Source: an uncultured Spirochaetaceae bacterium
Lineage (GTDB): Bacteria; Spirochaetota; Spirochaetia; Sphaerochaetales; Sphaerochaetaceae
Direction of reading: 5' to 3'
NCBI GenBank assembly: GCA_944390015.1
Contig: CALXOL010000021.1
Coordinates: 1 to 37,582 of the forward strand
Length of the DNA: 37,582 bases
This document shows positions 6,188 through 26,958 of this stretch, one piece after another. The position numbers and the translations under genes were made by a program. The number at the start of each line of letters is the position of its first letter. Position 1 is the stretch's first letter. The notes under the pieces are model-generated. The model was not told the DNA's origin. It made no database searches and saw nothing but the letters and a program-made list of their open reading frames with translations.

Positions 6188-6220
6188 TTGTGCCTTGATT
6201 TTCCCTTTCTACTTTAAAGG

Positions 6221-6249
6221 AAAATATAGGCATAAAAACACTTTGTCAA
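6221..6249 (-). promoter_or_regulatory. Promoter of the topA operon
   Basis: Perfect -35 TTGACA on the minus strand (6244-6249), 17 bases from TATTTT (6221-6226); TATATT two bases closer is an alternative -10. The predicted start is about 25 bases before the topA ATG, and the element sits directly behind the stop codon of the upstream gene. Confidence 0.55.
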
Positions 6250-6263
6250 CATCAAAGCACGGC

Positions 6264-7070: not shown

Positions 7071-7092
7071 TTAGCTTGCTCCTTATTAGACA

Positions 7093-7100
7093 AATATAGT
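7093..7100. promoter_or_regulatory. Overlapping divergent -10 boxes
   Basis: TATAGT (7095-7100) on the plus strand and TATATT (7098-7093) on the minus strand overlap by four bases in the 41-base gap between divergent genes. The two promoters would exclude each other. Convincing -35 boxes are not evident. The plus-strand start would fall only a few bases before the lipoprotein ATG. Confidence 0.35.
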
Positions 7101-7111
7101 ATCCTGAAAAT

Positions 7112-7813: not shown

Positions 7814-8145
7814 AAGCAGCAGATATTTTCATAGCAGTACTCTTTATCATACTTATCCTCATCTCCAGCCTTTTTCTATCGGGTTCAGGGGATGAGGTTT
7901 TGATTAATGCAAACTCAAAGGAGTACCGCTATCCCCTCTCAGAGGACCGCATCGTAGAGGTCGAGGGTCTTATCGGAACAACCACGATCGAGATAAAGGA
8001 CGGTAAGGCAAGCATCATCGACTCCCCATGCCCTGGAAAAACATGTCTGAGCATGAAGATGGGAGATGCAATCTGCTGCCTGCCGAACAGGGTGCTTCTT
8101 ACCATCGAGAACAGCAGCAAGGAGGTGGATGCCTATGCGTACTGA
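7804..8145 (+). CDS. NusG domain II-containing small membrane-anchored protein
   Basis: A 113-residue protein with one N-terminal membrane helix (residues about 6-26) and an extracytoplasmic NusG_II (DUF1312-type) domain. It contains the cysteine signature SPCPGKTCLSM and GDAICCLPNRVLL typical of this family. Relatives usually sit next to Gx-transporter/heptaprenyl-diphosphate-synthase component I genes, as here, and their function is unknown. No ATG is available at the N-terminus. TTG 7804 gives MELKAAD and overlaps the lipoprotein gene by ten bases; TTG 7810 is nearly as good. Neither has a clear ribosome-binding site, so coupling to the upstream gene is likely. Confidence 0.75.
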   Translation: MELKAADIFIAVLFIILILISSLFLSGSGDEVLINANSKEYRYPLSEDRIVEVEGLIGTTTIEIKDGKASIIDSPCPGKTCLSMKMGDAICCLPNRVLLTIENSSKEVDAYAY

Positions 8146-9178: not shown

Positions 9179-9207
9179 GAGCTATATTTATTTTTCTTTA
9201 ACCTGTA

Positions 9208-9250
9208 TTGACATTCGATAAATAATTATATATAAATTTTTATCGATAAA
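9208..9250 (+). promoter_or_regulatory. adhE promoter with palindromic operator candidate
   Basis: Perfect -35 TTGACA (9208-9213), 17-base spacer, TATAAA (9231-9236); the start is near 9243. A perfect 12-base palindrome TTTATCGATAAA (9239-9250) covers the start point. A second CGATAAATA copy lies in the spacer at 9216, 28 bases before the copy in the palindrome. This geometry fits a repressor that blocks initiation. The sites do not resemble the Rex consensus often found at adhE genes. Confidence 0.65.
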
Positions 9251-9266
9251 TATAAGGAGACAAAAC

Positions 9267-11927: not shown

Positions 11928-11949
11928 GAATAATCAATTGACACTACCT

Positions 11950-11983
11950 GGCCCATGCGTAAAAAGCTTGGGCCTTTTCTTAT
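11950..11983 (+). terminator. Intrinsic terminator of adhE
   Basis: GGCCCA (11950-11955) pairs with TGGGCC (11969-11974) across a 13-base loop, followed by TTTTCTTAT. The T tract overlaps the stop codon of the convergent membrane-protein gene. No T run follows in the leftward direction, so it acts rightward only. Confidence 0.8.
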
Positions 11984-12900
11984 CTGCTTAAAGACTTGTC
12001 GAAACAGATTTCTTCTGCCCTCTTTTGATGAAGAGAGAATGTCCGCTCAAGCTCCTCAAGATACAAAGAGCGTTCCTTTTCAATATATTTCACAAGGCCC
12101 TGCCTGTATTTCTTCCTGTTTATGAGCTCATCCAGTTTCACTCCCGTATAATTGATACCCAGACCCAGAAGAATGCCGAATCCAAGCCCCAATGGGCCTG
12201 AAAGAGCATCTGAGATCGTCGTAGGCAGGAAACTGTCTAAAGCCGTAGAGAATACTTCCTCTGCAAATGCAGATGATAGAATAGTCCCTGCGGCCCCTAC
12301 TCCTATGGTTAAAAGTGGATTAATCTCACTCTTAGGCATTCCTATCTCCCGATAAGATGAAATTGCGGATTGAATCTTCAGCTCGTAGTTCTTACCCTTG
12401 CGCCCTACGCTGTTTATTTTGAGAATCTTCTCAATTTCAGTTTTGAACTCCTCATTGGAAGAGGAACAGATCTCATTTAAGCGCACTGCAAGATCAAAGC
12501 TTGGAGTTATCGTGTCTTTGAGCATTTCAAGTGTCTGTTTCTTCTTCGCCTCTGCAACGTCATTACCGCTGAAAAAAGAAGAGAGTGTCCTTCCCGCCTG
12601 TTCAAAAAGACCAGAAAAACTATAAAAGCGGTCCAGGTAGTTATCTATGTTGCCAACCATCTCGTCATAGAAGTCATTCACAGCGTCCCTCATCTGACTC
12701 TCGGATTTTCCATAGACGGTTCTTTCACTTTGAAATATGGAATCACGCGTACCTTTCTTGAAATACCCTGAACCTATCTTTTCAAAAATCCTCTTTAACA
12801 GCCGCTGCCAGAACCTTGTCTTAATCGCAATAATAACAAAGAGGATGAATAGAAATAGAATAACGACATCCATAAGAATCCTGCTTAGGGCATCTGCCAT
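11980..12900 (-). CDS. Membrane protein of unknown function
   Basis: I do not recognise this 306-residue protein. A membrane helix (about residues 7-28, VVILFLFILFVIIAIK) is followed by a basic, then largely helical soluble region (about 35-210). Two further hydrophobic, glycine-rich segments (INPLLTIGVGAAGTILSSAF and LSGPLGLGFGILLGLGINY) come next, then a charged helical tail. The shape resembles proteins that insert a helical hairpin into membranes, but no GTPase or other motif is visible. I chose ATG 12900 because GGAG lies eight bases upstream; upstream in-frame codons add an unlikely extension. It diverges from the enoate-reductase-like gene with a 96-base gap. Confidence 0.55.
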   Translation of the reverse strand: MADALSRILMDVVILFLFILFVIIAIKTRFWQRLLKRIFEKIGSGYFKKGTRDSIFQSERTVYGKSESQMRDAVNDFYDEMVGNIDNYLDRFYSFSGLFEQAGRTLSSFFSGNDVAEAKKKQTLEMLKDTITPSFDLAVRLNEICSSSNEEFKTEIEKILKINSVGRKGKNYELKIQSAISSYREIGMPKSEINPLLTIGVGAAGTILSSAFAEEVFSTALDSFLPTTISDALSGPLGLGFGILLGLGINYTGVKLDELINRKKYRQGLVKYIEKERSLYLEELERTFSLHQKRAEEICFDKSLSR

Positions 12901-12961
12901 ATAGAACACTCCTTTTTCCATGATAATGCAAAAGATAATCAGATGGAAATATTGATTTGTT

Positions 12962-12990
12962 TTGACCTTCCAAATGTTCTGATTTACCAT
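12962..12990 (+). promoter_or_regulatory. Possible promoter adjacent to the enoate-reductase start codon
   Basis: TTGACC (12962-12967), 17-base spacer, TACCAT (12985-12990), then only six bases to the ATG. No ribosome-binding site is visible. If used, it would give a leaderless message. The -10 matches four of six consensus bases. Confidence 0.35.
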
Positions 12991-12996
12991 TTTCAT

Positions 12997-15045
12997 ATGG
13001 ATACACGATTAGAACCTTTATTTACTCCGTGGAAAATCGGAAAGTGCGAGATTAAGAACAGGATAGTACTTACAAGTATGGGTGGTACTGATTTATTCGG
13101 ATGGATGGAGAAGAACCATTTCGATAAGGATGGTGCCCGTTTCATCATGGAAGTGGCAGAAAATAATGTCGGACTGCTTCTTCCAGGTTGCCAACCAATA
13201 TACAACCCGATGTTTGGGCAGTGGCTTCATAAGAACAAGAAGATGTATAAGGACCTTGGCGCCTGGATGCCTTCATTCCATAAGAGCGGAGCTAAACTAT
13301 TTGTTCAGCTCACAGCTGGATTTGGACGTTCTTTTACGATAAGCAGCATGATGGAGATGCTTTACAATACTCCTATCATCAGGACAATTTCTAAGCCGAT
13401 AATGAATCTTGATAGAATCACGGCATCCGCAAGCCCATCCCCAAACAGATGGTCGGACAAGGTCCCATCCAGGCAGATGACCAGGGATGAGATAAAGGAG
13501 ATGGTGTTCTCTTTTGCGGAAAGTGCCCTGATGCTTCGCGATGCAGGGGTGGATGGAGTCGAGATCCATGCCGTACATGAGGGCTACCTGTTGGATCAGT
13601 TCACACTGAAGTATGTGAACAAGAGGAATGACGAGTATGGCGGATCGATGGAGAACAGATACCGCTTTGCAATTGAGATTGTCGAGGCCATAAAAAAGAG
13701 ATGCGGTGATGACTACCCCGTCTCTCTGCGCTACAGTGTTCTTTCCAAGACGAAGGATTTCAGAAAAGGCGCACTTCCGGGAGAGGAGTATGAAGAGGTA
13801 GGAAGAGACATGGAAGAGTCTGAAAAAGCCGTAAAACTGCTTGAAGAGGCAGGATACGACATGCTCAACTGTGATAATGGAACATATGATGCATGGTATT
13901 GGGCTCACCCACCTATCTACATGCCTGAGAACTGTAATCTTGAGGATGTAGAGCATATCCGAAAGTTCGTAAACATCCCTGTGGTTGCAGCAGGAAGGCT
14001 TGATCCATATACGGCAGCCGAAGCAATAAGGGAAGGAAGGCTCGATGGTGCAGGATTTGCCAGACAGTTCCTTGCAGATCCCGAGTGGATTACAAAGCTG
14101 AAAGAAGATAGGGGTGAGGATATCAGGCCATGCATCCTCTGTCATAACGGATGTTTCAACATGTGCCACTATAAAGGCGTTCCAAACGACCAGGATTTAT
14201 CTGACAGCCTTCACCTGGCACGCTGTGCGGTAAACGCCGAGATGATGCAATGGGAAAAGCATTATATCAAGAAAACCGATAGACCTAAGAGAGTCGCCAT
14301 CATCGGAGGCGGTATCGGAGGAATGGAGAGCGCAAGGGTATTGAAGCTCAGAGGACACGAGCCTGTGATATACGAAAAGAGTGACAGGCTCGGAGGCACG
14401 TTCATTGCCGCAAGCGCAGAGTCCTATAAGGGAAAACTCAGGGATCTGCTTAAATGGTATATAAGGCAGATGGAGACTCTTGGAATCGAAGTACGGTACA
14501 ACACTGAGATCTCAGGCACATCCACTCTTGATGCCGATGCCATCATCATAGCAACGGGAACTAAGGCGAAAAAGTTGAATATCCCAGGTTTTGATAGAGC
14601 AATAGAAGCCTGTGAATATCTTAATGGTACACCGGTCGGCGATACTATCGCTTTAATCGGAGGTGGTCTTACCGGATGCGAGGTGGCGTATGAACTCGCC
14701 CTTGAAGGAAAGAAAGTAAGCATCATTGAGATGAAGGATGACATCATCGCCCAAAAAGGTGTTTGTCTTGCAAACAGCTCCTATCTCAGAGAATGGTTCG
14801 AACTGAACAAGGTTCCCGTATATCTTAGTGCAAGGGTAAAAGAAATAAGAGAGACTTCGGTTATCATCAGCACTGCGGATGGAGGAGAAAAGAGCATAGA
14901 GGCAGAGAGCGTGATAAGCAGCATAGGATACGATCCGGCACCTCTTGAGATGCAGAAAAAGGCATATCTCGTAGGAGACTGCCTAAGCGTTGGAAACCTC
15001 AGAAGCGTCATATGGAGAGCATACGAGGTTGCAATGAAAATATGA
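12997..15045 (+). CDS. 2-enoate reductase-like Fe-S flavoenzyme (old yellow enzyme family)
   Basis: This 682-residue cytoplasmic enzyme probably reduces an activated C=C double bond with NAD(P)H. The N-terminal FMN barrel (about 1-350) begins LEPLFTPWKIG and contains DGVEIHAVHEGYLLDQF and the enoate-reductase-like block GTYDAWYWAHPP. A four-cysteine cluster motif follows, CILCHNGCFNMC with a later cysteine in ARCAVN, for a 4Fe-4S centre. The C-terminal half has two nucleotide-binding folds, AIIGGGIGGMESARVL and ALIGGGLTGCEVAYEL, for FAD and NAD(P). The arrangement matches clostridial 2-enoate reductase, 2,4-dienoyl-CoA reductase and BaiCD/BaiH; the GTYDAWYW block favours the first. It converges on the aconitase X genes, suggesting a role in the same pathway. 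The start follows the family N-terminus. Confidence 0.85.
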   Translation: MDTRLEPLFTPWKIGKCEIKNRIVLTSMGGTDLFGWMEKNHFDKDGARFIMEVAENNVGLLLPGCQPIYNPMFGQWLHKNKKMYKDLGAWMPSFHKSGAKLFVQLTAGFGRSFTISSMMEMLYNTPIIRTISKPIMNLDRITASASPSPNRWSDKVPSRQMTRDEIKEMVFSFAESALMLRDAGVDGVEIHAVHEGYLLDQFTLKYVNKRNDEYGGSMENRYRFAIEIVEAIKKRCGDDYPVSLRYSVLSKTKDFRKGALPGEEYEEVGRDMEESEKAVKLLEEAGYDMLNCDNGTYDAWYWAHPPIYMPENCNLEDVEHIRKFVNIPVVAAGRLDPYTAAEAIREGRLDGAGFARQFLADPEWITKLKEDRGEDIRPCILCHNGCFNMCHYKGVPNDQDLSDSLHLARCAVNAEMMQWEKHYIKKTDRPKRVAIIGGGIGGMESARVLKLRGHEPVIYEKSDRLGGTFIAASAESYKGKLRDLLKWYIRQMETLGIEVRYNTEISGTSTLDADAIIIATGTKAKKLNIPGFDRAIEACEYLNGTPVGDTIALIGGGLTGCEVAYELALEGKKVSIIEMKDDIIAQKGVCLANSSYLREWFELNKVPVYLSARVKEIRETSVIISTADGGEKSIEAESVISSIGYDPAPLEMQKKAYLVGDCLSVGNLRSVIWRAYEVAMKI

Positions 15046-15046
15046 G

Positions 15047-15069
15047 GTAAGAGGCTTAATGCCTCTTAC
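15047..15069. terminator. Hairpin between convergent genes
   Basis: GTAAGAGGC (15047-15055) and GCCTCTTAC (15061-15069) form a perfect nine-base stem with a five-base loop. It fills the 26-base gap between the enoate-reductase-like gene and the aconitase X small subunit gene. No T tract follows on either side, so it may act through hairpin strength or shield both 3' ends. Confidence 0.6.
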
Positions 15070-15071
15070 AC

Positions 15072-15521
15072 TCAGCGCTCCACTTTTACAGAGCCGTCCT
15101 CCATTACTGTTATCTTATCACCGGTTTGGACATATGAGAGAAAATCATCACCCAGCCCATCTATCGTAGGCATGGGGTTATCCGTCCAGACTGCTGAAAG
15201 CACAGCTCCAGCTGCGGCCAAGGAGTCTATCTCCTTTGAGAAAAGAAGACAAGCCGGCTGCCTGCCCATGCACGAGGCACAGTAGAGGACAAGGCCTCCC
15301 GTAGTAGACCCGATTGTCTGCGGCAGACAGAGTGCTTTTCCAGCCATCTCCCTCTTATACAGATCAGCATTGTTCTGGTCAGAGCATTTACCTTTCTTAT
15401 CACCAAACATGAGTGAATGCTGATAGCTGGCAAGCGTATTGAATCCACCTTTTGAGACTAGTGCCTCCGCAGAGACGCTACCTTTTACTACGACTCTTCC
15501 CTTGAAAATCCTTTCGCTCAT
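15072..15521 (-). CDS. Aconitase X small (swivel-domain) subunit, DUF126
   Basis: A 149-residue swivel domain that closes over the active site of the large subunit. The family block LPQTIGSTTGGLVLY is present, its GST serine corresponding to the conserved catalytic-site serine of this domain. It is followed by QPACLLFSKEIDSLAAAGAV and the final GDKITVMEDGSVKV strand pair. Characterised aconitase X enzymes are dehydratases acting on cis-3-hydroxy-L-proline or, in archaea, on mevalonate 5-phosphate. The substrate here is not evident. The start codon overlaps the large-subunit stop by four bases (ATGA), so the two are made together as a two-chain enzyme. Confidence 0.9.
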   Translation of the reverse strand: MSERIFKGRVVVKGSVSAEALVSKGGFNTLASYQHSLMFGDKKGKCSDQNNADLYKREMAGKALCLPQTIGSTTGGLVLYCASCMGRQPACLLFSKEIDSLAAAGAVLSAVWTDNPMPTIDGLGDDFLSYVQTGDKITVMEDGSVKVER

Positions 15522-16786
15522 AACGCACCTCCCGTGATGATATCCAAAAGCTTCTCTTCCCTGAAATACCTTGCAGAGGTATACGTCCTGAGCTTATTGG
15601 AACATGTGACTACCGGCATTGAACCGCACATAGGATTATTCATATACATCAAAGGACATATGTATGAGAGCTTAACGCCATACCCTGTAAGCCTTCCATA
15701 CTCCTCGCTCTTCTTAAATTCCTTTAAGACCGCTGGAGCCGCCGTCATCACAGTATCAATTGAAACATTTTTCATTCCTTTGCTCTTAAGGGCATCTCCA
15801 ATCCTGTTCGTCCAGCTTACAAGCTGTGCATACGACAGATGTGGGCATCCGATGAAAGCCAGCTTCGGATGTGCATTTTTATCCTTCCATATTATAGGAT
15901 AATTCATCTCCGTCGCCTTAAGAACCTCATCATCGATTACGAAGGTCTTATACCCCTCTTTCAGCAGCGCCCTTCCCTCTTCCACAGCCTCAGGAGTCAG
16001 GGACTCCACATGATAGAGGCCGACAGCGCCATTGGAGGCAGTAGCAGCGCCAAAGTCTTTGAAATAAGCTTTCGCTTCGTCATCCAATGAGGTGAAATAT
16101 CTGTCCATTCCAACAATGTATGGAACGTCTTCCATAACCTTCATTCCGATTGCGGAACCAAGAAGCTGAGCTTCGGGCTTTCGACTTGTTCTTACTTCAA
16201 TCAGCCAATCCGCTTTCCTTCCCTCATCCGTAAGAAGGCCAAAATAAGGTACGCAGCCTACTATTGAGCCGAAAAGGTCGAGGATTCCGCTGTTTCGGTT
16301 ACAGCGAGCTCCAAGTATGCTGTTCGCATATACGACTGCTGAGCTCTCAGCCCAGGATAGGATATCTCCCTTCTTCGGACAGTTTCCAACCTCATCCATG
16401 TAACACGTGCATGTATATGCGTCATCGGAGAGAATACCGAGCTTCTTAAGCTGTGCATCGTAATCCTTCTGTTTTGAATACATCACCTTGAAGAAGATGT
16501 TCTGAATAAAATTCCTTGGTACGACATCCTCAAGTGGTCTTGGGTCAACGGAAAACTTCTGGGAAGAAATAGCTCCACCTTCGATCAGAGTATCCATCAA
16601 ATCATAAACCGGCTTCATCACCGATAATCCGAAACTTGTGACCAGATGTCCGTACTCCCCCGTGATATCCGCCATACGGGTTGAACCGAATGTTTCTCCG
16701 TACATTATCAAGGTCTTCATCACCTTAGCTTTGACATCCCCTTCTTTTCCGTCAAGGATGTCCTGCTGTCTTTTTGTCAGTTCCAT
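15518..16786 (-). CDS. Aconitase X large (catalytic) subunit, DUF521
   Basis: This 422-residue catalytic subunit belongs to the aconitase superfamily branch that dehydrates hydroxy acids. The family start MELTKRQQDILDG, the YGETFGSTRMADI block, DPRPLE near residue 81, YTCTCYMDEVGNCP (cysteines about 126, 128, 136), ANSILGARCNRNSGI (cysteine about 162) and the C-terminal MNNPMCGSMPVVTCSNK are all recognisable. Several of these cysteines probably hold the Fe-S cluster. I start at ATG 16786, with AGAGG about eight bases upstream; an upstream in-frame start would place translation inside the terminator of the preceding operon. A terminator separates it from the flavoprotein gene, so it may have its own promoter or depend on read-through. 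The substrate is unknown. Confidence 0.9.
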   Translation of the reverse strand: MELTKRQQDILDGKEGDVKAKVMKTLIMYGETFGSTRMADITGEYGHLVTSFGLSVMKPVYDLMDTLIEGGAISSQKFSVDPRPLEDVVPRNFIQNIFFKVMYSKQKDYDAQLKKLGILSDDAYTCTCYMDEVGNCPKKGDILSWAESSAVVYANSILGARCNRNSGILDLFGSIVGCVPYFGLLTDEGRKADWLIEVRTSRKPEAQLLGSAIGMKVMEDVPYIVGMDRYFTSLDDEAKAYFKDFGAATASNGAVGLYHVESLTPEAVEEGRALLKEGYKTFVIDDEVLKATEMNYPIIWKDKNAHPKLAFIGCPHLSYAQLVSWTNRIGDALKSKGMKNVSIDTVMTAAPAVLKEFKKSEEYGRLTGYGVKLSYICPLMYMNNPMCGSMPVVTCSNKLRTYTSARYFREEKLLDIITGGAL

Positions 16787-16831
16787 ATTGTTTCCTCTTT
16801 TTCCAATGTTAACACAAAAATGCTCAATAAT

Positions 16832-16862
16832 AAAAAAACAGCCTTGCATTTCTGCAAGACTG
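16832..16862 (-). terminator. Intrinsic terminator after the flavoprotein gene
   Basis: On the minus strand CTTGCA and TGCAAG (16853-16858 with 16843-16848) pair around a four-base loop, extended by CAG/CTG beyond one mismatch, and are followed by seven T (16832-16838). It lies just behind the flavoprotein stop codon and should end or attenuate the liv-to-flavoprotein transcript before the aconitase X genes. Confidence 0.75.
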
Positions 16863-16867
16863 CAAAA

Positions 16868-18787
16868 TTAATATACGCATTTATCCTCTCTGTAACGCGC
16901 CCAAACGTTCTCAAAGAAATCATCCTCATCAGGGATAGGACGGGGTGATCTCCTGCTGAATATCAGAGCCCCGGACTCATACCGCACTTCCTGTATCTGG
17001 GATTCTATGCTCTCATCCTCCAATGAATATGTGAATCTCGAATCAAGATTTGGAATATGAATAGGTCCTGATTCATCCGTATATAGGGCAGAGCCCCGGC
17101 TTTTCCCACCTTCAGCAAGGTAGTCAATCATGCTTGCAAGGTATACTTTCTGAGAAATCAGAGCATTTCTGAGTTCAAAGAGGATCCAAAGCTTGGAGGG
17201 GCTATCTACTCGAATGTCCTCAAAGGAATCAAGATATTCGTTGACCTCCATGAGTGCCTTTTCAAGTAAGCTTCGCTCCCTTATGGCAGCACCGTTAAGG
17301 CTCATGAGCATCCTCACCTTCTTATAAACACTCTCAGCATCAAGAGTACCGTTTAAAGCATTCTTCATGATGTGGCATATCTCTCTTATCTGGCTTTCAA
17401 GTCCTTTTGTATCTGCTTTCCAGCCGCCCCTCCTATGCTGTAGAATCCAGTTTGATGCCCGTCTTGAGCCACACTGACCGGCATTAAGAGCAGACCCGCC
17501 AGGGCGATACACTCCATGTGATGCTGCAACTTCTCCTACGGGGAAAATGCCTTTTATGTTCGACTGCCACCAGGAATCTATGGCAAGCCCCCCGTTGTTG
17601 TGCTGCGCCGATAAAGATATCTCAAGATACTCCCTCGCAAGGTCAACCCCCTTATCGAGATAGAACTCATAAGCAGGCATATTCAACTTCTTAAGACGGC
17701 AAATCGGAGTTTCCAGTGTCGCACTAGATGCCTTAAGGTAACTTGAAGCCTCCTCAGAAAGCTCATCCCATGGCACTTCCATAAAGTCAGGATTATGCAT
17801 GAAATCGAGATAAACACGTCTTTTCTTCTCTAACTCGAGATAGCATAGCATGTCTATGATTGATGACCCGGACTCGAGCTTTCTCACATCAAACGGCCAC
17901 TGATAGCCTTTTAAGAATATCAGGGAGAGCATCTTCTCCCTCTTATAGTCATACTCAGATAGGAAGTCATGCTCAATCCCATTCTCATCTATTGAGACGA
18001 AACGGGGAATCACCTGCATGTAGGATCCTGACACGTTCCAGCGAGGGTGAACAGATGCAAGGCCATACTGCCACTCAGTTAGGTTCTTGCCCATGCATCC
18101 TGCTTCGAATGCGATTCCTGTCGCACCAAACTGACTTTCTGGATATACGGACATGGAATATATTCCAGCAGGCCCCCCAGTAGCAAAGACAAGAGAGCGG
18201 CAGAAGATAACCATGCCATCTCCCGTCTTACGGTTTATCAGGATAAGGCCTCTAAGCTCATTATCCCTGACAAGAATCCTAACAGCCTGATAGCCGTCAA
18301 GCATCTCAATATTAAGAGTTTCCGCCTCCTTCTCGAGGGCCTCTGTCATGAAACGAGAAGTATAAGGTCCTGCACTCGTTGCTCTTCTATGAGGATCATG
18401 ATCTGTCTTATAACCAATATACTCCCCATATCTGTTTACGGGAAACGGAACACCCATGTCTGCAAGACGTAAAAAGGAAGCGGAAGAAAGAGATGCCTCG
18501 CATAATGCGATATCACCATCAACACACCTGCCTTTAAAAAGATCCAGTGCAAGAGCTTTCACGCTATCCGGGTCATCACCGGCAAGAGAGAGCTTATAAT
18601 ACGTCTGTTTATCAGAACCGGTATTGCGGCTCGTTCCGGCCTTTCTTGCCTCACTGACGAGCAGAAGATCATCCTCTCCACCTTTTTTCAAAAGGCATGC
18701 GGCATTATATCCGGCAGCCCCTGTTCCAAGGACAACGGTCTCCACCTCATAGGCCTTCATACCATCTACGATACCAAAATCTCTCAT
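16868..18787 (-). CDS. Fumarate-reductase/succinate-dehydrogenase-like flavoprotein
   Basis: A 639-residue soluble FAD enzyme. The N-terminal Rossmann motif VVLGTGAAGYNAA, the ATGGPAG element near residue 210 and the C-terminal QHNNGGLAID...GIFPVGEVAA...GGSALNAG blocks define the fumarate reductase/L-aspartate oxidase flavoprotein superfamily, which oxidises or reduces CH-CH bonds next to carboxylates. The N-terminal NTGSDKQTYY differs from true SdhA/FrdA, and no Fe-S or membrane-anchor subunit is encoded nearby. Electrons must therefore go to a soluble partner, possibly the neighbouring old-yellow-enzyme homologue. The start ATG overlaps the dehydrogenase stop (TAATG) with AGAGG five bases upstream. 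It is the last gene before the terminator, and its substrate is unknown. Confidence 0.8.
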   Translation of the reverse strand: MRDFGIVDGMKAYEVETVVLGTGAAGYNAACLLKKGGEDDLLLVSEARKAGTSRNTGSDKQTYYKLSLAGDDPDSVKALALDLFKGRCVDGDIALCEASLSSASFLRLADMGVPFPVNRYGEYIGYKTDHDPHRRATSAGPYTSRFMTEALEKEAETLNIEMLDGYQAVRILVRDNELRGLILINRKTGDGMVIFCRSLVFATGGPAGIYSMSVYPESQFGATGIAFEAGCMGKNLTEWQYGLASVHPRWNVSGSYMQVIPRFVSIDENGIEHDFLSEYDYKREKMLSLIFLKGYQWPFDVRKLESGSSIIDMLCYLELEKKRRVYLDFMHNPDFMEVPWDELSEEASSYLKASSATLETPICRLKKLNMPAYEFYLDKGVDLAREYLEISLSAQHNNGGLAIDSWWQSNIKGIFPVGEVAASHGVYRPGGSALNAGQCGSRRASNWILQHRRGGWKADTKGLESQIREICHIMKNALNGTLDAESVYKKVRMLMSLNGAAIRERSLLEKALMEVNEYLDSFEDIRVDSPSKLWILFELRNALISQKVYLASMIDYLAEGGKSRGSALYTDESGPIHIPNLDSRFTYSLEDESIESQIQEVRYESGALIFSRRSPRPIPDEDDFFENVWARYREDKCVY

Positions 18788-19554
18788 TACAGCCTCTTGA
18801 TATGGAAACCACCGTCAACATCTACATAGTTTCCCGTGGTATAAAGGAAATGATCGTCTGCGAATGCGGAGACGGCCATTGCGATATCCTCTGGATAGCC
18901 CCATCTTGCAATAGGGAAGGCCCCATCGGCTATGAGCTTGTCATATTTGGCTGAGACGGTATTCGTCATATCGGTGGCAATAACACCTGGCCTTATCTCA
19001 TGCACAAGGATACCCTTCGAGGCAAGACGGTCAGCATATAACGTTGTAAGCATGCTAACCCCGGCTTTTGACACGCAGTACTCGCCTCTCGATATCGATG
19101 ATACCTCAGCCGAGCATGATGAGATATTGATTATTGTTCCTCTCTTCTTACCAAGCATCTCTTGCTCAATCATCTGCTTTGCAACAAGCTGTGTAAGGAA
19201 CATGTTCCCCTTGGTATTTATAGAAAGGACCCGGTCAAAGCTCTCTTCGCTCATTTCAAGAAGATCCGTCCTCTCCTTAGGGGCGACTCCGGCGTTATTA
19301 ACGAGTACGTCGATACGACCGAATGCCTCAACGGTCTCCTTTACTATGCGGATCCTATCATCGTGGTTGCTTATATCCGCCTGAATATACTTCCAGTCGA
19401 TATTCTCTGAAGTAAGAATATCCAAGTTCTTCTGATTCTTCTCCTGAGCCCCTGTTGCTACGACTGCGACAGAAAATCCGTCAAGCCCAAGCTGTCTCGC
19501 GATTGCAAATCCAATTCCACGGCTCGCACCTGTTATCAAAGCTGTCTTCTTCAT
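18787..19554 (-). CDS. Short-chain dehydrogenase/reductase
   Basis: A 255-residue NAD(P)-dependent oxidoreductase of the classical SDR type. It has the cofactor motif TGASRGIG near the N-terminus, DVLVNNAG in the middle, and the catalytic serine in NISSCSA with Tyr and Lys in GEYCVSKAG. The C-terminus GNYVDVDGGFHI is typical of the FabG-like branch. It interconverts an alcohol and a ketone on an unknown pathway intermediate. ATG 19554 lies three bases after the upstream stop, with AGAGG seven bases before it; a TTG one codon earlier is less likely. It is coupled to both neighbours. Confidence 0.9.
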   Translation of the reverse strand: MKKTALITGASRGIGFAIARQLGLDGFSVAVVATGAQEKNQKNLDILTSENIDWKYIQADISNHDDRIRIVKETVEAFGRIDVLVNNAGVAPKERTDLLEMSEESFDRVLSINTKGNMFLTQLVAKQMIEQEMLGKKRGTIINISSCSAEVSSISRGEYCVSKAGVSMLTTLYADRLASKGILVHEIRPGVIATDMTNTVSAKYDKLIADGAFPIARWGYPEDIAMAVSAFADDHFLYTTGNYVDVDGGFHIKRL

Positions 19555-19557
19555 CAA

Positions 19558-20910
19558 TCAACCTCTAAAATTCTCGGGTAAGTCTTTTTTCTCAACCATG
19601 AACTCCCTATAGAAAGGAAGGAATGTCTCTGGATATCTGATTACGCACCCCGTAGGTTTATGCGCTCTTATGAGATCCCCGCATTTACCGCATGTCAGGC
19701 ATACCCTCTTGGGATTAATACGCCCCTCCTTTATTATCTCATTCGGAAAATCAGGATCTGCAAAAGCCATACGTCCAAAAAGGAATCCATCAGCATAATT
19801 ACCCGCAACAGCCCCGGCTGCATAAAGATCCGAATACTGTCTCAGATAAGTAGGAGCAGAGGCATAGACTGCCATATCAGGAACACTCTCCTTTATCTCC
19901 TTCACCCCTTGAATCATCCTTGCCACCCCTATGAGAGGGTGTTCATCCGGCACGTATTTGCCCATATCGAACGGTCTTACTATATGTGTCGTCGCATATG
20001 GATTTCCCATCGTTATATCCACAAATGTCAGGCCAAGCTCATCATGAAGCTCCTTTACAAGGCGCTTTGGCTCGCTTAAATCCATAGCACCATCCTCAGC
20101 CTGACCAAAACCTCTCGAATAGGCGGGATAGCCATCATAGATTCCGATTCTAGAGACAACGGAGAATGACGGACTTTCATAAGCCTTAGCCGCTTTGATT
20201 GAGTTCTTTAAAAGTCTTGTCCTGTTCTCATAGGAGCCGCCATACTCTCCTTTCCTCTCATATGCGGAAGCGACTTCCTGGAAAAGATATCCATGGCATG
20301 ATTTGATATCAACGGCATCGAATCCCGCCTCTTTTGCTAAAAGTGCGGACTTTCCCGTCATCTCCTCTATATATTTCAGATAATCATCGGAGACGATACA
20401 CGAATCATCTGCGGCACGGAATGTCTCCAGCCATTTATTCCTCTGTGCAATTAGTGGGGCTGGCTTATTATCCGGGTTAGAATAGCGCCCTGAGTGGTTG
20501 GACTGCATGATCAGATACGGCTCGAATCCATTCTTTCTGATTCCTGCCTCCTTAACACGCTCATTAAGACGTTTGAACGAATCGACATTATCCTCTGTGA
20601 TAAGCAGCTGCGTCTTTGAAGAACGCCCTTCCTCTACGATGGATATCGCCTCATACCAGATTAGCCCTGCTCCTCCCTCTGCCTCACGTACGTAGCGGGC
20701 CTCCGTATACTCCGAAGGTCTTCCGTCCTCAGTCGAATCAGCACCTTCCATCGGAGCTATCCCCAACCTGTTTTGAAGCTTGATGTTACTTATTTCGAGC
20801 GGTGTTGCAAGAATCGAGGTATCATAGGCGAATGGTAGCGATATGCCAAGCTCCCTGCATTTCTCAAGAAGCTCTTCTAATGTCTTATAATGGAATTTCT
20901 CATGACTCAT
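19558..20910 (-). CDS. NADH:flavin oxidoreductase (old yellow enzyme family), short form with Fe-S motif
   Basis: A 450-residue FMN-barrel enzyme. After an N-terminal extension of about 35 residues come NRLGIAPMEGADS, an altered QSNHSGRYSNPDNKP substrate-loop region, AVDIKSCHGYLFQE and EYGGSYENRTRLL, the barrel signatures. Near the C-terminus CLTCGKCGDLI and a later cysteine (PTGCVIR) resemble the Fe-S site of the enoate/dienoyl-CoA reductase group. The FAD/NAD domains that follow it in the larger homologue at 12997 are absent. It may therefore receive electrons from another protein, for example the flavoprotein two genes downstream. This is a distinct clade from the first homologue, so the two probably act on different double bonds. 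Confidence 0.85.
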   Translation of the reverse strand: MSHEKFHYKTLEELLEKCRELGISLPFAYDTSILATPLEISNIKLQNRLGIAPMEGADSTEDGRPSEYTEARYVREAEGGAGLIWYEAISIVEEGRSSKTQLLITEDNVDSFKRLNERVKEAGIRKNGFEPYLIMQSNHSGRYSNPDNKPAPLIAQRNKWLETFRAADDSCIVSDDYLKYIEEMTGKSALLAKEAGFDAVDIKSCHGYLFQEVASAYERKGEYGGSYENRTRLLKNSIKAAKAYESPSFSVVSRIGIYDGYPAYSRGFGQAEDGAMDLSEPKRLVKELHDELGLTFVDITMGNPYATTHIVRPFDMGKYVPDEHPLIGVARMIQGVKEIKESVPDMAVYASAPTYLRQYSDLYAAGAVAGNYADGFLFGRMAFADPDFPNEIIKEGRINPKRVCLTCGKCGDLIRAHKPTGCVIRYPETFLPFYREFMVEKKDLPENFRG

Positions 20911-20925
20911 AAACTCATTTCCTCA

Positions 20926-21300
20926 TCATAATGTCCCGTCCATCTCTTTTTTCCAGTGATCGACTACAATCTGTGGTGCATAGACGAACATGAGAGTCAT
21001 CTTCTCCTTACCTGTGTTTCTCAGCCCATGCTTTATCCATGGCGTGATGAATACGTATTCACCTTCCCCGATGGCCCTTGTCTCATCGCCCACGGTTATC
21101 TCCCCACATCCTGAGAGCACAGTGTAGGATTCAACAGTCTCATGGTCATGGACAGGGATGGATCCACCAGGCTCAATCTCGACATAGCCCTGGCAGAACT
21201 TCTCCCCCTTTATCGCTCCGTTTTCCCCGATCATCACATGAGTACGCCTACCCGTGGGAAACTCCATGTATGGGATTTCATGAATATTCCTTATCTCCAT
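20926..21300 (-). CDS. Single-domain cupin protein
   Basis: A 124-residue beta-barrel with the two cupin motifs: PGGSIPVHDHETVESYTVLS, giving two histidines and a glutamate as metal ligands, and PWIKHGLRNTG, giving the third histidine. Small cupins like this act as isomerases, epimerases, decarboxylases, lyases or sensors, so the role here is open. ATG 21300 was chosen because GGAGG lies five bases upstream; it follows the livF stop by one base. Its place between transporter and catabolic enzymes suggests it works on the imported compound. Confidence 0.85.
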   Translation of the reverse strand: MEIRNIHEIPYMEFPTGRRTHVMIGENGAIKGEKFCQGYVEIEPGGSIPVHDHETVESYTVLSGCGEITVGDETRAIGEGEYVFITPWIKHGLRNTGKEKMTLMFVYAPQIVVDHWKKEMDGTL

Positions 21301-21301
21301 A

Positions 21302-22015
21302 TCAGCCTCCAAGATAAGCTTTCCTTACATCATCTGAATTCAAAAGATCATTGCCGCTTCCCTCAAGCTTAATCCTGCCATTTTCAAGGACATAGGCATA
21401 ATCGCAGATGGAAAGGGCCTTCTTAGCATTCTGTTCAACCAGCAGTATCGTGATTCCCGATTCCCTGATTCTCTGTATTATGTCATAAATCTGGGATACG
21501 ATTATCGGAGCAAGCCCCATTGATGGCTCATCAAGAAGAAGGATCTTAGGATGGGACATCAGGCCGCGGCATACCGCAAGCATCTGCTGTTCTCCTCCAG
21601 AGAGCGTTCCAGCGAACTGATTGCGCCTCTCCCTAAGAATCGGGAAAAGATCGTACTGTCTTTCCAGATCTTCTCTTATCTTGCTCTTATCTGAGAGATA
21701 TGCGCCTACAAGAAGATTGTCCTCAATAGTAAGGCCTGAGAACGTCCTTCTCCCTTCTGGGACGTGGATGACACCCTTCTTGACTACCTTGTATGGCTTC
21801 TTGGGAAGCTCCTCTCCCTCGAATTCAATCGTACCCTTAAGTGGTTTGACAAGGGCACTTACTGCCTTGAGAAATGTTGATTTACCAGCACCGTTTGCAC
21901 CGATTATGGAGCAAATCTCACCTTTTCTGACCTCTACATTGACATCTTTGAGTGCCTCGATATGCCCATAATTCACGCAGAGGCCACTAACCTTCAACAA
22001 TACATCATGACTCAT
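21302..22015 (-). CDS. livF: Branched-chain-amino-acid-type ABC importer, ATPase LivF
   Basis: A 237-residue ATP-binding subunit with Walker A GANGAGKST, signature LSGGEQQM and Walker B ILLLDEPSMGLAP. The HVPEGRRTFSGLTIEDNL stretch is typical of LivF. It works with LivG to energise the LivHM channel. Its ATG overlaps the livG stop by four bases. Liv systems also carry urea, aromatic acids, bile-acid-like and other small carboxylates, so a true amino-acid substrate is not assured. Confidence 0.93.
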   Translation of the reverse strand: MSHDVLLKVSGLCVNYGHIEALKDVNVEVRKGEICSIIGANGAGKSTFLKAVSALVKPLKGTIEFEGEELPKKPYKVVKKGVIHVPEGRRTFSGLTIEDNLLVGAYLSDKSKIREDLERQYDLFPILRERRNQFAGTLSGGEQQMLAVCRGLMSHPKILLLDEPSMGLAPIIVSQIYDIIQRIRESGITILLVEQNAKKALSICDYAYVLENGRIKLEGSGNDLLNSDDVRKAYLGG

Positions 22016-22776
22016 TGCTCCGCTCCTAAGTAAGCTTCGATAACCGCCTGGTTATGCTGCACCTCATCCGCAGTTCCCACTGCAATCGTCTCTCCGAAAT
22101 TCTGTACGTGTATAAGGTCTGAAATACTCATTACCAGATCAAGACGATGCTCGATTAAAAGGATTGCGAATCCAAATTCAACGGAAATTCTTTTTATAAG
22201 ATCTGTCAGCTCCATTACCTCAGTAGGGGTTAAGCCAGCTGCAGGTTCATCAAGAAGAAGTACCTTCGGCTCGCACATCAAGGCTCTGGCTATCTCAACC
22301 TTCCTCTGATTTCCATAAGAGAGATTCTCCGGCCTCTCATCCTTCTTATCGGCCATGCCTACTACTTCGAGGTATTTTCTGGCAAGCTCTCTTCCTCTTT
22401 TCTCCTCTTTAAATCTCTTGGGAGTCGGGATGAGTCCGCCGAATACGGAGTACTTACTCTGCGGATCAAAAGCACAGAGGACATTCTCCTCGATTGTAAG
22501 GCCTCTGAAGATTCTTATATTCTGGAATGTTCTTCCAATCCCCAGCCTGGTTATCTTGTATTGTGGAAGCCTCGTTATGTCCTCTCCACTGAGCACAACG
22601 GATCCTGAATCCGCCTGATACACCCCGGAGATGGTATTGAATATAGTAGTCTTTCCCGCACCGTTCGGCCCGATTATTCCGTGTATCTGCCCGGCCTCAG
22701 CTTCCAGAGAGAAATCAGCAATAGCCTTGATTCCACCAAAATTCTTACTAATATGCCTTATTTCCAGAAGTGCCAT
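22012..22776 (-). CDS. livG: Branched-chain-amino-acid-type ABC importer, ATPase LivG
   Basis: A 254-residue ATP-binding subunit: Walker A GPNGAGKTT, signature LSYGNQRKVEIARAL, Walker B LLLDEPAAGLTP. The GRTFQNIRIF element near residue 85 is characteristic of LivG. AAAGGAG precedes the start codon and the gene begins one base after the livM stop. It pairs with LivF as the motor heterodimer at the cytoplasmic face. Confidence 0.93.
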   Translation of the reverse strand: MALLEIRHISKNFGGIKAIADFSLEAEAGQIHGIIGPNGAGKTTIFNTISGVYQADSGSVVLSGEDITRLPQYKITRLGIGRTFQNIRIFRGLTIEENVLCAFDPQSKYSVFGGLIPTPKRFKEEKRGRELARKYLEVVGMADKKDERPENLSYGNQRKVEIARALMCEPKVLLLDEPAAGLTPTEVMELTDLIKRISVEFGFAILLIEHRLDLVMSISDLIHVQNFGETIAVGTADEVQHNQAVIEAYLGAEQ

Positions 22777-22777
22777 G

Positions 22778-23656
22778 TTATCTCTCCTTTACCTTTCTCT
22801 GCTTCCTGTTAAAACGCATAAGAGCCCTTCTCATGTTCTTTGGGGTAAGCTCCCACTCTCCGAATACTCCCTTCGGCTTGAAGTTAAGGATGAACAGTAC
22901 GAGAACGGCATATACGACCGCCCTGTACTTATTAAGCGCCTGCATGTACTGAGGAAGGAACGTAAGGAACGCACCACCGAAGATGGAACCGGTAAGGCTG
23001 TTCACTCCGCCGAAGAATACCATGATTACCCAGTCAGCGGATTTCTTCCACCCAAAGTCCGTCGGTCCTACATAGCCGATATTGAAGGCAGAGAGGCATC
23101 CAGCTAATGCCGTCATTGCGCAAGAGAGGAGGAATGCTATCATCTTGACCCTGGATGTGTTGATTCCCATTGCCTTGGCAGCAAGCTCATCGCTCTTGAT
23201 CGCTATGCACTGCCTACCGTACTTGCTGCATTTGAAAAGCGCAGTAAGAATTATGACGAGAATCGCAATGATTAAAGCTATCCACACATTTACACGTCTC
23301 GGTATACCGATAAGACCGAATGCACCGCCAGTGTACTGGCTTAGAAGGAGAATCAACTGGGCAATGGATTCTCCGAATCCAAGCGTGACAAGCGAGATAT
23401 AATCCCTTCTCAGCCTTACGACAGGAAATCCGATCACATAACCGACACAGACTGCGAAGGCAATAGCAAGGAGGAACGCCAGATACATGTTCATGCCCGT
23501 ATTGAGAACCAATAGTCCTGAGACATAAGCACCGATTGCCATGAAAGCGGCAGAACCCAGGGAGAACATACCCGTCAGACCAGTAAGGATATATATACCG
23601 CACACCGATACCAGTGTGATACAAACCTGCGTCAATACATAAAGAAATAGATTCAT
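22778..23656 (-). CDS. livM: Branched-chain-amino-acid-type ABC importer, permease LivM
   Basis: A 292-residue membrane protein with about eight hydrophobic segments. The motifs LTGMFSLGSAAFMAIGAYVS and FGFGESIAQL-like LVTLGFGESIAQ, followed by ALAGCLSAFNIGYVGP and VIMVFFGGVNSLTGSIFGGA, are the standard LivM coupling and channel blocks. The positively charged C-terminus ends KRALMRFNRKQRK-like. It forms the channel with LivH and starts 12 bases after the livH stop. Confidence 0.92.
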   Translation of the reverse strand: MNLFLYVLTQVCITLVSVCGIYILTGLTGMFSLGSAAFMAIGAYVSGLLVLNTGMNMYLAFLLAIAFAVCVGYVIGFPVVRLRRDYISLVTLGFGESIAQLILLLSQYTGGAFGLIGIPRRVNVWIALIIAILVIILTALFKCSKYGRQCIAIKSDELAAKAMGINTSRVKMIAFLLSCAMTALAGCLSAFNIGYVGPTDFGWKKSADWVIMVFFGGVNSLTGSIFGGAFLTFLPQYMQALNKYRAVVYAVLVLFILNFKPKGVFGEWELTPKNMRRALMRFNRKQRKVKER

Positions 23657-23668
23657 GCCTTTTCCCCC

Positions 23669-24541
23669 TTATGCCTTCTCCTGGACATTGCTTCCAGCAA
23701 TACCCTGAGGACGGATGAGAAGGAATACGAGCATCACGGCAAATGATGCTATTGTAGCCCATCCTGAACCCATTGTACTTAGGAAGATCGCTTCCATTAT
23801 CCCTAAGAGCATCGCACCTATCACAGCTCCTGTGAGGCTTCCAAGTCCACCTATGACAGAGGCTATGAATCCTTTTACAACAAGGCTTCCCATGGTTGCT
23901 GTCAAAGTATACTTAATACCGAGGAAGCATCCAGCAAGACCTCCGAATATCCCTGATATGATGAATACCGCCTGGATTATAAGCGTTGCATTTATTCCCA
24001 TCAGCTGAGCTGTATCCCTGTCGAAGGAGACGGCACGGATTGCTCTTCCGATACTGGTCTTCTGTATTACGAATGCAAGGGCAAGCAAAGCAGCAACGCT
24101 GATTACAAGCATTATTATGTTCTCTTTTGAGATGACTGTCTGAAAAAGCTGTATCGTAGGAGTTTCAAAGAAGTTCGGGTAAACATAGAAGTTCGTCCCC
24201 GCTTTAAGCGTTACAAGCCCCTCATACAACGACCCTAAGGTTATCGACGATACAAAGAAATAAGTTGAAGGTGAATGGTTTTTAAGAATCCTTCTAAAGC
24301 CTACGAACTCACCTATGAGGCTGATCAGGGCTCCTGCAAGAGCTGAGCAGATCAGCGTCGGCACAAGTCCCCACCCCTTGGAGGCGACGAGAAAATATGC
24401 GATGAATGCAGATGCGGTCATTGTCGCACCATATGAGAAATTTGAGAATTTAAGAATATTGAAAACCAAGGCGAATCCGATTGCGATAAGAGCATATACG
24501 GTGCCTGTGGAGATTCCGTTTATGAGAATCTGGAATGACAT
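23669..24541 (-). CDS. livH: Branched-chain-amino-acid-type ABC importer, permease LivH
   Basis: A 290-residue membrane channel subunit, from ATG 24541 (MSFQILINGISTGTVYALIA) with AAGGA nine bases upstream. A longer in-frame start would lie inside the upstream hairpin. Family blocks include the first helix TGTVYALIAIGFALVFNILK, FSYGATMTASAF and the coupling-region GGLGSLTGAVIGAMLLGIME. Gene order K-H-M-G-F is the classical one. Confidence 0.92.
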   Translation of the reverse strand: MSFQILINGISTGTVYALIAIGFALVFNILKFSNFSYGATMTASAFIAYFLVASKGWGLVPTLICSALAGALISLIGEFVGFRRILKNHSPSTYFFVSSITLGSLYEGLVTLKAGTNFYVYPNFFETPTIQLFQTVISKENIIMLVISVAALLALAFVIQKTSIGRAIRAVSFDRDTAQLMGINATLIIQAVFIISGIFGGLAGCFLGIKYTLTATMGSLVVKGFIASVIGGLGSLTGAVIGAMLLGIMEAIFLSTMGSGWATIASFAVMLVFLLIRPQGIAGSNVQEKA

Positions 24542-24559
24542 ATGTGCTATCCTTTCTGA

Positions 24560-24586
24560 ATGTGGGCTCCGTAATGAAGCCCACAT
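24560..24586 (-). other. Stem-loop between livK and livH
   Basis: ATGTGGGCT (24560-24568) and AGCCCACAT (24578-24586) form a perfect nine-base stem with a nine-base loop and no T tract. Such structures after binding-protein genes commonly protect the 5' part of the mRNA or partly stop transcription, so that more binding protein than permease is made. Confidence 0.6.
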
Positions 24587-24608
24587 GTCTGGTTAAAATT
24601 AACTTTTA

Positions 24609-25757
24609 TCAGTTTGCAGCTGGATACTGCTCGAGCATGACAGGAGTCGTTCCATCATACTTATACATGAACATAGGAGTACCGAGAACAGGCATGTGTG
24701 TCTCTGGATCCATCTGGATTGTTCCTGTAAGACCTGTGTACTCAGCAGTCTCAAGGGCCTGAGCAACCGTAGCACCGTCTGTGCCGACCTCTCCCATTAC
24801 CTTTGCTGCCATCATCATGGAATCGTATCCGAGGAAGTACTTGTTAGGAGCACCTACATTCTGGCATCTCTCTTCGATGGCCTTTGCTGTAGCCTCTTCA
24901 TATACATCGATGTTGTTGATGTAATAAACGTTAGAGCAGTCCGCTCCTACCTGGGTATTGAAAGCAGGTGCGCCATCAAGACCTGTTATGATAGCACCTT
25001 TGAAGCCGAGGCTGTCGCAAGCCTTCTTAATGAGTACGAGAGGTGCTGTATAGTTCGGGCAGTAAATTGCATCAACCCCAGCGTTTATAATAGGCTGGAT
25101 GAGCGTGTTGATATCGGTCTCTGTTGAGTTATATCCGATGATGTTCTTATCTTCAAGAGTACCGCCGTTAGCTCTTACGGTCTCTACGAATGGATCGAGA
25201 AGGGATACGGAATACGAGTTATCCTGAGTATAGAAAACTCCGAAATTCTTAAATCCGTTCTTCATTGCGAACTCAGCCATGATCTGACCCTGTACTACTG
25301 TTGAAGGCTGTGCGCAGAATAAATAGTCATAGAGGTTGCCATTATTATCGGTATAGCACGTCGGATCAACAGCGAAAGTAATCATTGGAATGTCATAGCT
25401 TGCCGTAGTAGCCTTAAGACCTGATACGATATTTGCAATCGGTGGTCCGAAAAGGAAATCTACCTGGTCAACAGTGACAGCCCTGATGTATGCTGCGATT
25501 GCAGTATTTACATCACCTGCGGTATCGTACTCGATGTACTTTACCTCAGCACCATTAATGCCGCCAGCAGCGTTAATGTCTGCAATAGCATCCTCTACTC
25601 CCTTCTGAACAGAAAGGCCGAGAGTAGCTGTAGCTCCGGTAGTGTCCTGAAGAATACCGATTAAAATCGAATCAGAGGAACCACTCTCTGCTGCACCACC
25701 TGCAAAGACTGTCGTCATCATGCAGAGTACCATTAGAATTGCAAGGATTTTTTTCAT
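24609..25757 (-). CDS. livK: Branched-chain-amino-acid-type ABC importer, periplasmic binding protein LivK
   Basis: A 382-residue substrate-binding protein. The signal peptide MKKILAILMVLCMMTTVFA is followed by GGAAESGSS, a mature N-terminus seen often in Sphaerochaeta and Treponema binding proteins; no lipobox cysteine is present. The family-I periplasmic fold shows ILQDTTGATATLGLSVQKG, INAAGGINGAEV, LFGPPIANIVSGL and the ITFAVDPTCYT region. ATG 25757 has AAAAGGAG upstream. The ligand cannot be predicted: Liv-type proteins bind amino acids, amides and aromatic or short carboxylic acids. It is the first structural gene under the LacI-type operator. Confidence 0.92.
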   Translation of the reverse strand: MKKILAILMVLCMMTTVFAGGAAESGSSDSILIGILQDTTGATATLGLSVQKGVEDAIADINAAGGINGAEVKYIEYDTAGDVNTAIAAYIRAVTVDQVDFLFGPPIANIVSGLKATTASYDIPMITFAVDPTCYTDNNGNLYDYLFCAQPSTVVQGQIMAEFAMKNGFKNFGVFYTQDNSYSVSLLDPFVETVRANGGTLEDKNIIGYNSTETDINTLIQPIINAGVDAIYCPNYTAPLVLIKKACDSLGFKGAIITGLDGAPAFNTQVGADCSNVYYINNIDVYEEATAKAIEERCQNVGAPNKYFLGYDSMMMAAKVMGEVGTDGATVAQALETAEYTGLTGTIQMDPETHMPVLGTPMFMYKYDGTTPVMLEQYPAAN

Positions 25758-25796
25758 TTTTCTCTCCTTTTGTAGTTTGAAACGCTCCAAGAATAC

Positions 25797-25941: not shown

Positions 25942-26958
25942 TTAACAGACAGTATCACGCACCATCAGGATGGGATCGAACACATAATCCTCAATGGTGT
26001 TCGCCTTTTTCCCTTCAATCATGTCGATTAGAACATCTACCGCTTTTTTCCCCATCTCCTTAAACGGCTGACCTATCGAAGTCAGCTTCGGGATGAATAG
26101 CTCAGATATAGGAACGTTATCATACCCTATCACTGAAATATCCTGAGGAACTTTTATGCCCATCTCATTCAGGGCATGGATGGCATCGACAGCTATGTTA
26201 TCGCTGGCGCAGAAGAGCGCATCAACATCGATTCCTGATTTTATCTTCTCCGGTATGATTTTTGTCGCGACCCTTTCCGAACCCCTATAGCCATACCAAA
26301 TAAGGTCTGGATCTATTTTAATACCATGCTTTAATAACGTATTCACATAACCTTCATAGCGGTCTTTATAAAGTTTCAGGTACTCCTGCCCCTGTAAAAA
26401 AGCAATCCTTCTCTTTCCCTTGCTAAGCAGGTATTCGACTCCCATTGCAGAACCCTTGGCATTATCCAGCCGTACGGAAGTCGCACTTACCCCATCCGTT
26501 CTTAAAAGATTCACACATGGAATGCCATCCCTTACGACCTCGAGAATCTCCTCATTCTCCTCTACATTAAGCAATGCAGTCGAGAAAATAAAGCCATCGA
26601 CATTCCTGCCTTTGAGCTTTTTCACGTACTCTTTTGCTATTTCCTTGTCTTCCTGGATGTCACAGAGAAGAATCGTATAACCCCTCTCCCTTGTTTCGAC
26701 CTCCATCGCCTGTATTATCGCAGGATAGATCATGATTTCTATGTTTGGAACGAAGAACGCTATCGTCTTACTACATTGCGTCTTTAGACCTTTTGCGAAA
26801 TAATTCGGCTGGAAATCGAGGGATTTGGCACATTCCAGAATCTTTTTCCTCGTATCTGGGCTGACATGGGCATCATAACATAAGGCACGGGATACCGTGC
26901 TTTTAGAGAATCCCGTTTTCTGTGCGATATCCTTAATTGTAACGTTGTTCCTGCCCAT
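25942..26958 (-). CDS. LacI/GalR-family transcriptional regulator
   Basis: A 338-residue repressor. The N-terminal helix-turn-helix VTIKDIAQKTGFSKSTVSRA is classical, followed by the hinge (FQPNYFAKGLKT), which would contact the central CG of the operator. A periplasmic-binding-protein-like sensor domain follows, with IAFFVPNIE, GRNVDGFIFS, RRIAFLQGQ, CASDNIAVDAIHAL and VIGYDNVPISELF. Unlike most LacI proteins tied to sugar genes, it adjoins an amino-acid-type importer, so its effector may be a non-sugar. It is transcribed in the same direction as livK, with a 184-base gap holding operator and promoter. Its own start lacks a well-spaced ribosome-binding site, and a TAATAT box ends eight bases before the ATG. 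Confidence 0.93.
   Translation of the reverse strand: MGRNNVTIKDIAQKTGFSKSTVSRALCYDAHVSPDTRKKILECAKSLDFQPNYFAKGLKTQCSKTIAFFVPNIEIMIYPAIIQAMEVETRERGYTILLCDIQEDKEIAKEYVKKLKGRNVDGFIFSTALLNVEENEEILEVVRDGIPCVNLLRTDGVSATSVRLDNAKGSAMGVEYLLSKGKRRIAFLQGQEYLKLYKDRYEGYVNTLLKHGIKIDPDLIWYGYRGSERVATKIIPEKIKSGIDVDALFCASDNIAVDAIHALNEMGIKVPQDISVIGYDNVPISELFIPKLTSIGQPFKEMGKKAVDVLIDMIEGKKANTIEDYVFDPILMVRDTVC

Follow-up and report, generated by a model that had tools for sequence, protein, structure and literature searches.

Fe–S OYEs matter for the redox chemistry of gut anaerobes. In the bai operon, which serves bile acid dehydroxylation, an SDR, an Fe–S OYE, a flavoprotein and a dehydratase are found together, and the substrate is a sterol. 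In classical fumarate reductase, FrdA receives its electrons from a separate Fe–S protein. We know of no described enzyme in which the OYE and fumarate-reductase folds are wired together through an FMN–[4Fe-4S]–FAD chain.

According to excerpts of PMC6502838, the [4Fe-4S] cluster of 2-naphthoyl-CoA reductase connects FAD and FMN, and the electrons of trimethylamine and histamine dehydrogenases reach ETF via the cluster. Split OYEs are already known: passages of PMC10769871 describe BilR, whose extra C-terminal domains can be absent, and a separate flavodoxin-like protein, BilS. By analogy with these precedents, it is plausible that a short OYE exchanges electrons with a separate partner. In the survey of Fe–S flavoenzymes by Pascal Andreu et al., PF00724 and PF07992 were required in one protein (excerpt of PMC7371122).

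Gene layout of the window and sequence of the short OYE

The window is the whole stretch of DNA that was analysed (37,582 nucleotides), and its closest named relative (L004, 76% identity) is labelled uncultured Spirochaetales. Its minus strand encodes, in this order, a LacI-family regulator (25942..26958), a LIV-type ABC importer (LivF, LivG, LivM, LivH and LivK, 21302..25790), a small cupin (20926..21312), the short Fe–S OYE (19558..20910, 450 aa), an SDR dehydrogenase (18787..19557; NCBIfam NF009386, 322 bits for a cut-off of 250) and a fumarate-reductase-like FAD protein of 639 aa (PF00890, 16868..18787). LivK was identified by domain scan, and the four other importer genes were named by inspection. 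A homologous importer set occurs in 5 of 25 relative clusters, and the cupin in 4 of the 25. The earlier note placed the OYE beside the flavoprotein; the two genes are indeed close and in the same run, but they are not directly adjacent, the SDR gene lying between them. The stop codon of the OYE gene abuts the start of the SDR gene, whose stop overlaps the start of the FAD-protein gene (TAATG), so that a single operon fits these junctions.

The large and small subunits of an aconitase-X (AcnX) follow on the same strand (15072..16849). A terminator-like hairpin with a T-run (16863-16838, minus strand; a consensus match only) stands between them and the FAD-protein gene, so the aconitase-X pair may be a separate transcription unit. 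On the opposite strand lies a fused OYE (12997..15045, with a start at 12943 or 12997), which does carry its own FAD and NAD domains, as had been claimed (Oxidored_FMN and Pyr_redox_2 by Pfam); its top NCBIfam match is BaiCD, under the cut-off of that model. The FAD protein was described earlier as a lone flavoprotein, and inspection of the ORFs of the window, part of which were also domain-scanned, revealed no gene for an FrdB-type Fe–S subunit or for a membrane subunit.

Oxidored_FMN is the sole Pfam domain of the short OYE (residues 36-309, E 6e-25, 88.6 bits for a cut-off of 27), and this score, together with the OYE barrel, places the protein in the PF00724 superfamily. The protein has no FAD/NAD domain and ends 28 residues after the motif C404-x2-C407-x2-C410-x11-C422, which agrees with the earlier description of an enzyme that stops soon after its Fe–S cysteines. 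It shares the FMN barrel of the fused Fe–S OYEs FadH, BaiCD and 2-naphthoyl-CoA reductase (excerpts of PMC6502838 and PMC11574389), and its active-site Tyr and four cysteines align with those of FadH; in the E. coli enzyme the cysteines are C335, C338, C342 and C354. The four cysteines form a predicted [4Fe-4S] site, although their spacing is CX2CX2CX11C, with X2 in second position, and that of the fused Fe–S OYEs is CX2CX3CX11-13C. PF07992 is absent from the short OYE. Since the census of Pascal Andreu et al., as excerpted, demanded a fused Pyr_redox_2, the class of short OYEs falls outside it.

The four cysteines are kept in all 31 aligned OYEs, that of the window included (ORFs of 444-517 aa), in those of genomes G011 and G663, and in ten out of ten diverged short OYEs, which end 4-17 residues past the last cysteine and are 27-32% identical to the window OYE where this was measured. 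The profile search returned four rows with "stops inside"; the ORFs of 381-388 aa which bear the motif are open. Residues Q136, H139, H206, Y208, R254 and G379-R380 are invariant in 18 of 18 aligned OYEs, so that these proteins are expected to bind FMN and to have an active-site Tyr. In the position of the YqjM-type H-x-x-H, the window OYE has K203-x-C-H206, of which Lys203 is nearly invariant in the same 18-member alignment. The alignments exclude L005 and L006, which are duplicates of L068 and L052, and the L009 sequence is truncated.

The atypical substrate loop pointed out earlier, ERKGEYGGS, is real, and the nearer relatives usually have R-x-G-x-YGG. The five diverged, partner-linked OYEs that were aligned show a near-canonical N-x-R-x-D loop, so this feature is not tied to the pairing with the FAD protein.

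The AlphaFold model of the OYE, built from a 7-sequence alignment, has a mean pLDDT of 68.5, which drops to about 42 in the Fe–S region. The 50 Foldseek matches listed are OYE-type enzymes. Both by sequence and by fold, the top matches among those listed are single-domain OYEs, for example YqjM and the enzymes from Thermus and Thermoanaerobacter.

One of the closest described arrangements is BilRS, in which an OYE devoid of added C-terminal domains is linked to a separate flavodoxin-like protein, as far as the excerpts of PMC10769871 indicate. The locus differs from it in its partner, which is a large fumarate-reductase-like FAD protein accompanied by an SDR. Moreover, the window OYE scores 78-79 bits against the bilirubin-reductase NCBIfam models, whose cut-offs are 425 and 750, and by inspection it lacks the HGDR motif.

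Conservation of the OYE–FAD protein pair

In the phylum of the window, 392 genomes were searched: 11 have the OYE (counted up to E 1e-60), 24 have the FAD protein, and 10 have both (Fisher P 1e-12). For the family to which G392 belongs, which we infer to be the Lachnospiraceae, the corresponding numbers are 18, 16 and 15 out of 397 genomes (P 2e-23); both P values ignore the relatedness of the genomes. The 15 of the 40 FAD-protein genomes that lacked a close OYE were searched with a profile for diverged ones. Such OYEs were found in 10 of them; they score 354-488 bits, whereas the other OYE matches reach about 170 at most, and all ten lie no farther than 2 kb from the FAD-protein gene. They are left outside the Fisher tests because the profile search covered these 15 genomes only.

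The short OYE is therefore present in 35 of the 40 FAD-protein genomes. The distance between the two genes is at most 2.1 kb in 28 of them, 10.7 kb in one and 15-19 kb in two; in four (G340, G386, G011 and G393) the genes are unlinked, being on separate contigs or distant from each other. In all 28 close pairs the OYE gene is upstream of the FAD-protein gene and co-directional with it. This co-occurrence and the 28 close pairs show that the pairing is not due to chance; the earlier note would have abandoned its proposal if the genes were rarely neighbours, and they are frequent ones. In five genomes the gap is very short: 0 bp in G147, 13 bp in G671, 72 bp in G349, 87 bp in G261 and 123 bp in G771. 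The first-pass genome search was lossy: the OYE gene of G663 that adjoins the FAD-protein gene (L131) was missed at first and recovered later, this genome having been counted initially via another, distant short OYE.

In the 25 relative clusters counted (26 with the window; L034, L035 and L064-L067 are excluded), the SDR is found in 22 and the FAD protein in 19. The short OYE, the FAD protein and, usually, the SDR thus form a conserved gene module in two bacterial groups, which resides in gene clusters of anaerobic bacteria that look like catabolic ones. No description of this trio was found among the literature matches listed. The trio is real and conserved, and outside the published census by definition, yet it is assembled from known kinds of parts.

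The pairing has exceptions on both sides. Within the sensitivity of the profile search, no short OYE was found in five FAD-protein genomes. One of them (G226) has a fused OYE in its cluster (L109), and another (G216) is about 80% complete; G224, G359 and G527 have neither excuse. The FAD protein was not detected in 4 of 39 short-OYE genomes (G342, G658, G410 and G502). Four-Cys OYEs related to the paired ones, in genomes without a detected FAD protein, are encoded at L035, L065, L066 and L067. The neighbours at L065 are RhaA, an FGGY kinase and an aldo-keto reductase by Pfam, and by eye L035 and L067 have a similar content; the stretch of L066 that was seen has an ABC importer and an ORF resembling a TIM-barrel isomerase, but no RhaA.

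The FAD protein and its probable catabolic context

The FAD protein matches PF00890 (FAD_binding_2) with 63.7 bits for a cut-off of 20.4, and its sequence places it in the fumarate reductase/aspartate oxidase superfamily. Like FrdA and NadB, it has the substrate His and Arg: His396 and Arg428, which align with H356 and R391 of FrdA, are invariant in 43 of 43 sequences. Unlike FrdA, it has other residues in the place of H45, which we take to be the covalent-FAD His, and of R288 (here Ser308), presumably the catalytic proton-shuttle Arg, according to an alignment with FrdA and NadB that is gapped in the R288 region. It also carries an insertion with an invariant R249-W250-N251, and the motifs GSDKQTYY and KGYxWPF (43-member alignment). 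No cysteine is common to the 43 aligned proteins, the best conserved position being 393 (36/43). The structure model has a pLDDT of 53.8. No NAD(P)H domain is recognisable by Pfam, Pyr_redox_2 scoring 25.1 bits, below its cut-off of 26.1. Since this domain is missing and His396 and Arg428 are kept, the protein looks like a second substrate enzyme rather than a detached NADH module, and it probably has its own substrate.

The trio probably marks a catabolic module, which in some clusters lies beside sugar-acid enzymes. The neighbour domains were scanned in a few clusters, with one representative each. By Pfam, L109 has an IlvD-type dehydratase (ILVD_EDD), a KDPG/KHG aldolase and a PfkB kinase, and L121 has members of the altronate-type dehydratase, MR_MLE, DHDPS and heparinase II/III families. 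Amidohydro_2 was found in L010, ThuA in L115 and URO-D in L118. Several of these neighbours suggest that the substrates are hydroxylated acids or sugars, and other clusters have no enzyme of this type; the neighbours differ among clusters, so that a substrate class shared by all of them is a presumption. A conserved protein of about 690 aa with no Pfam match (L115, 3907-5967) occurs in the FAD-protein clusters of ThuA/Gfo-Idh type, and ORFs resembling it by eye are present in L114, L116, L117, L119 and L120.

Aconitase-X was considered as a shared pathway core and rejected: it has no blastp match in the relative clusters, and the hairpin separates the window copy from the trio. The window AcnX reaches 131 bits against the cut-off of 700 of the NCBIfam cis-3-hydroxyproline dehydratase model. 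The idea of a shikimate/quinate pathway was dropped, the literature search having found no paper.

Most likely, the trio is a conserved redox module that acts on a hydroxylated acid. The SDR would interconvert an alcohol and a ketone, and the OYE, through its FMN, would reduce or introduce the C=C bond adjoining this ketone. The FAD protein would handle a second two-electron step beside a carboxylate, using the kept His and Arg to clamp it, while the varying dehydratases would supply the elimination of water. This "oxidise, dehydrate, reduce" logic would resemble that of bile-acid dehydroxylation; the bai operon has a similar list of parts in a catabolic cluster, but its families differ in detail from those of the module, whose neighbours are of sugar-acid type. 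Through its predicted [4Fe-4S] cluster, the OYE would swap single electrons with another protein, which could be a generic ferredoxin or flavodoxin, or else the FAD protein.

We give an even chance to the whole of this proposal, which adds to the observed conservation a role in the catabolism of a polyhydroxylated carboxylic acid or sugar derivative, with electrons exchanged in this manner. It is supported by the co-occurrence of the OYE and the FAD protein in both genome samples, the frequency of the SDR, the sugar-acid-type neighbours in L109 and L121 and AcnX in the window, and the invariance of Q136, R254, G379-R380 and Tyr208 in the OYEs. Against it, the neighbour enzymes vary among the few clusters scanned, the dehydratase of the window (AcnX) may belong to another transcription unit, no ferredoxin or flavodoxin gene was seen in three or more of the 26 clusters, and five partner-bearing genomes have no detected short OYE.

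Candidate electron partners of the OYE

The locus raises the question of the electron source of a truncated Fe–S OYE. As this enzyme has no FAD/NAD domain, exchange with a separate protein is most likely. What speaks for the FAD protein as this partner is gene linkage and gene order. It could dock on the OYE, so that an FMN–[4Fe-4S]–FAD wire would run over two polypeptides with one organic substrate at each end, the oxidation of one intermediate paying for the reduction of another. If true, two pathway intermediates would be coupled without NAD(P)H. We consider such a complex possible, though doubtful. In its favour, the two genes remain neighbours where the SDR has moved or is not seen (G147, with no SDR match in L118, and G671, G349, G261 and G771), the OYE is always upstream in close pairs, and the four-Cys site is fixed in every short OYE checked despite the missing FAD/NAD domain; classical FrdA, too, accepts electrons from a distinct Fe–S protein. 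On the other hand, the genes are apart in four genomes, five others have no detected short OYE, and no OYE–FAD protein fusion was seen in either genome sample (open frames at FAD-protein matches measure 767 aa at most). Distance matrices from 20 clusters did not reveal a specific OYE–FAD protein signal: the correlation (r 0.59, calculated without species-tree control, as were the others) is not above that of the SDR and the FAD protein (0.62).

It is less likely that the two proteins are plain neighbours which never meet, the cluster of the OYE being structural and its FMN being reduced directly by NAD(P)H, as in YqjM. The single-domain nature of the top OYE matches is consistent with this, and so are the four genomes in which the OYE has no detected partner, including the L065 surroundings confirmed by Pfam. 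Nevertheless, the conserved cysteines correspond by alignment to those of the FadH redox cluster, and the linkage of the two genes is very tight.

The least probable reading makes the FAD protein a detached NADH module, with electrons passing along NADH–FAD–[4Fe-4S]–FMN, in which it would do the work of the C-terminal part of a fused OYE. The strong linkage agrees with it, and L109 shows that such a cluster can accommodate an OYE that carries an FAD/NAD domain itself, but the protein has FAD_binding_2 only, with Pyr_redox_2 under its cut-off, its His396 and Arg428 never vary, and in L109 (one genome) it is retained beside the fused OYE that replaces the short one and that would render an NADH module redundant. 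The linkage supposed by the earlier proposal of a split complex is strong. In view of the same observations and of the 4 of 39 short-OYE genomes without a detected FAD protein, however, its term "functional analogue" for the pair, with respect to the fused OYE, exceeds the evidence. The L109 cluster (4230-15209, in G226) comprises the fused OYE, a Zn-ADH, an SDR, IlvD, the FAD protein, a LacI regulator, a cupin, the KDPG/KHG aldolase and the PfkB kinase.

Possible electron carriers are encoded in some of these loci. At 36640-37377 (plus strand), the window encodes a protein that, by eye, looks like a fusion of a flavodoxin with two 4Fe-4S motifs. L010 has a homologue (15019-15798), 0.7 kb past the FAD-protein gene, these being the only two of the 26 clusters in which it occurs. 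In L005, a 4Fe-4S ferredoxin-domain protein (7565-8341) is encoded just upstream of the short OYE and is a candidate electron donor there.
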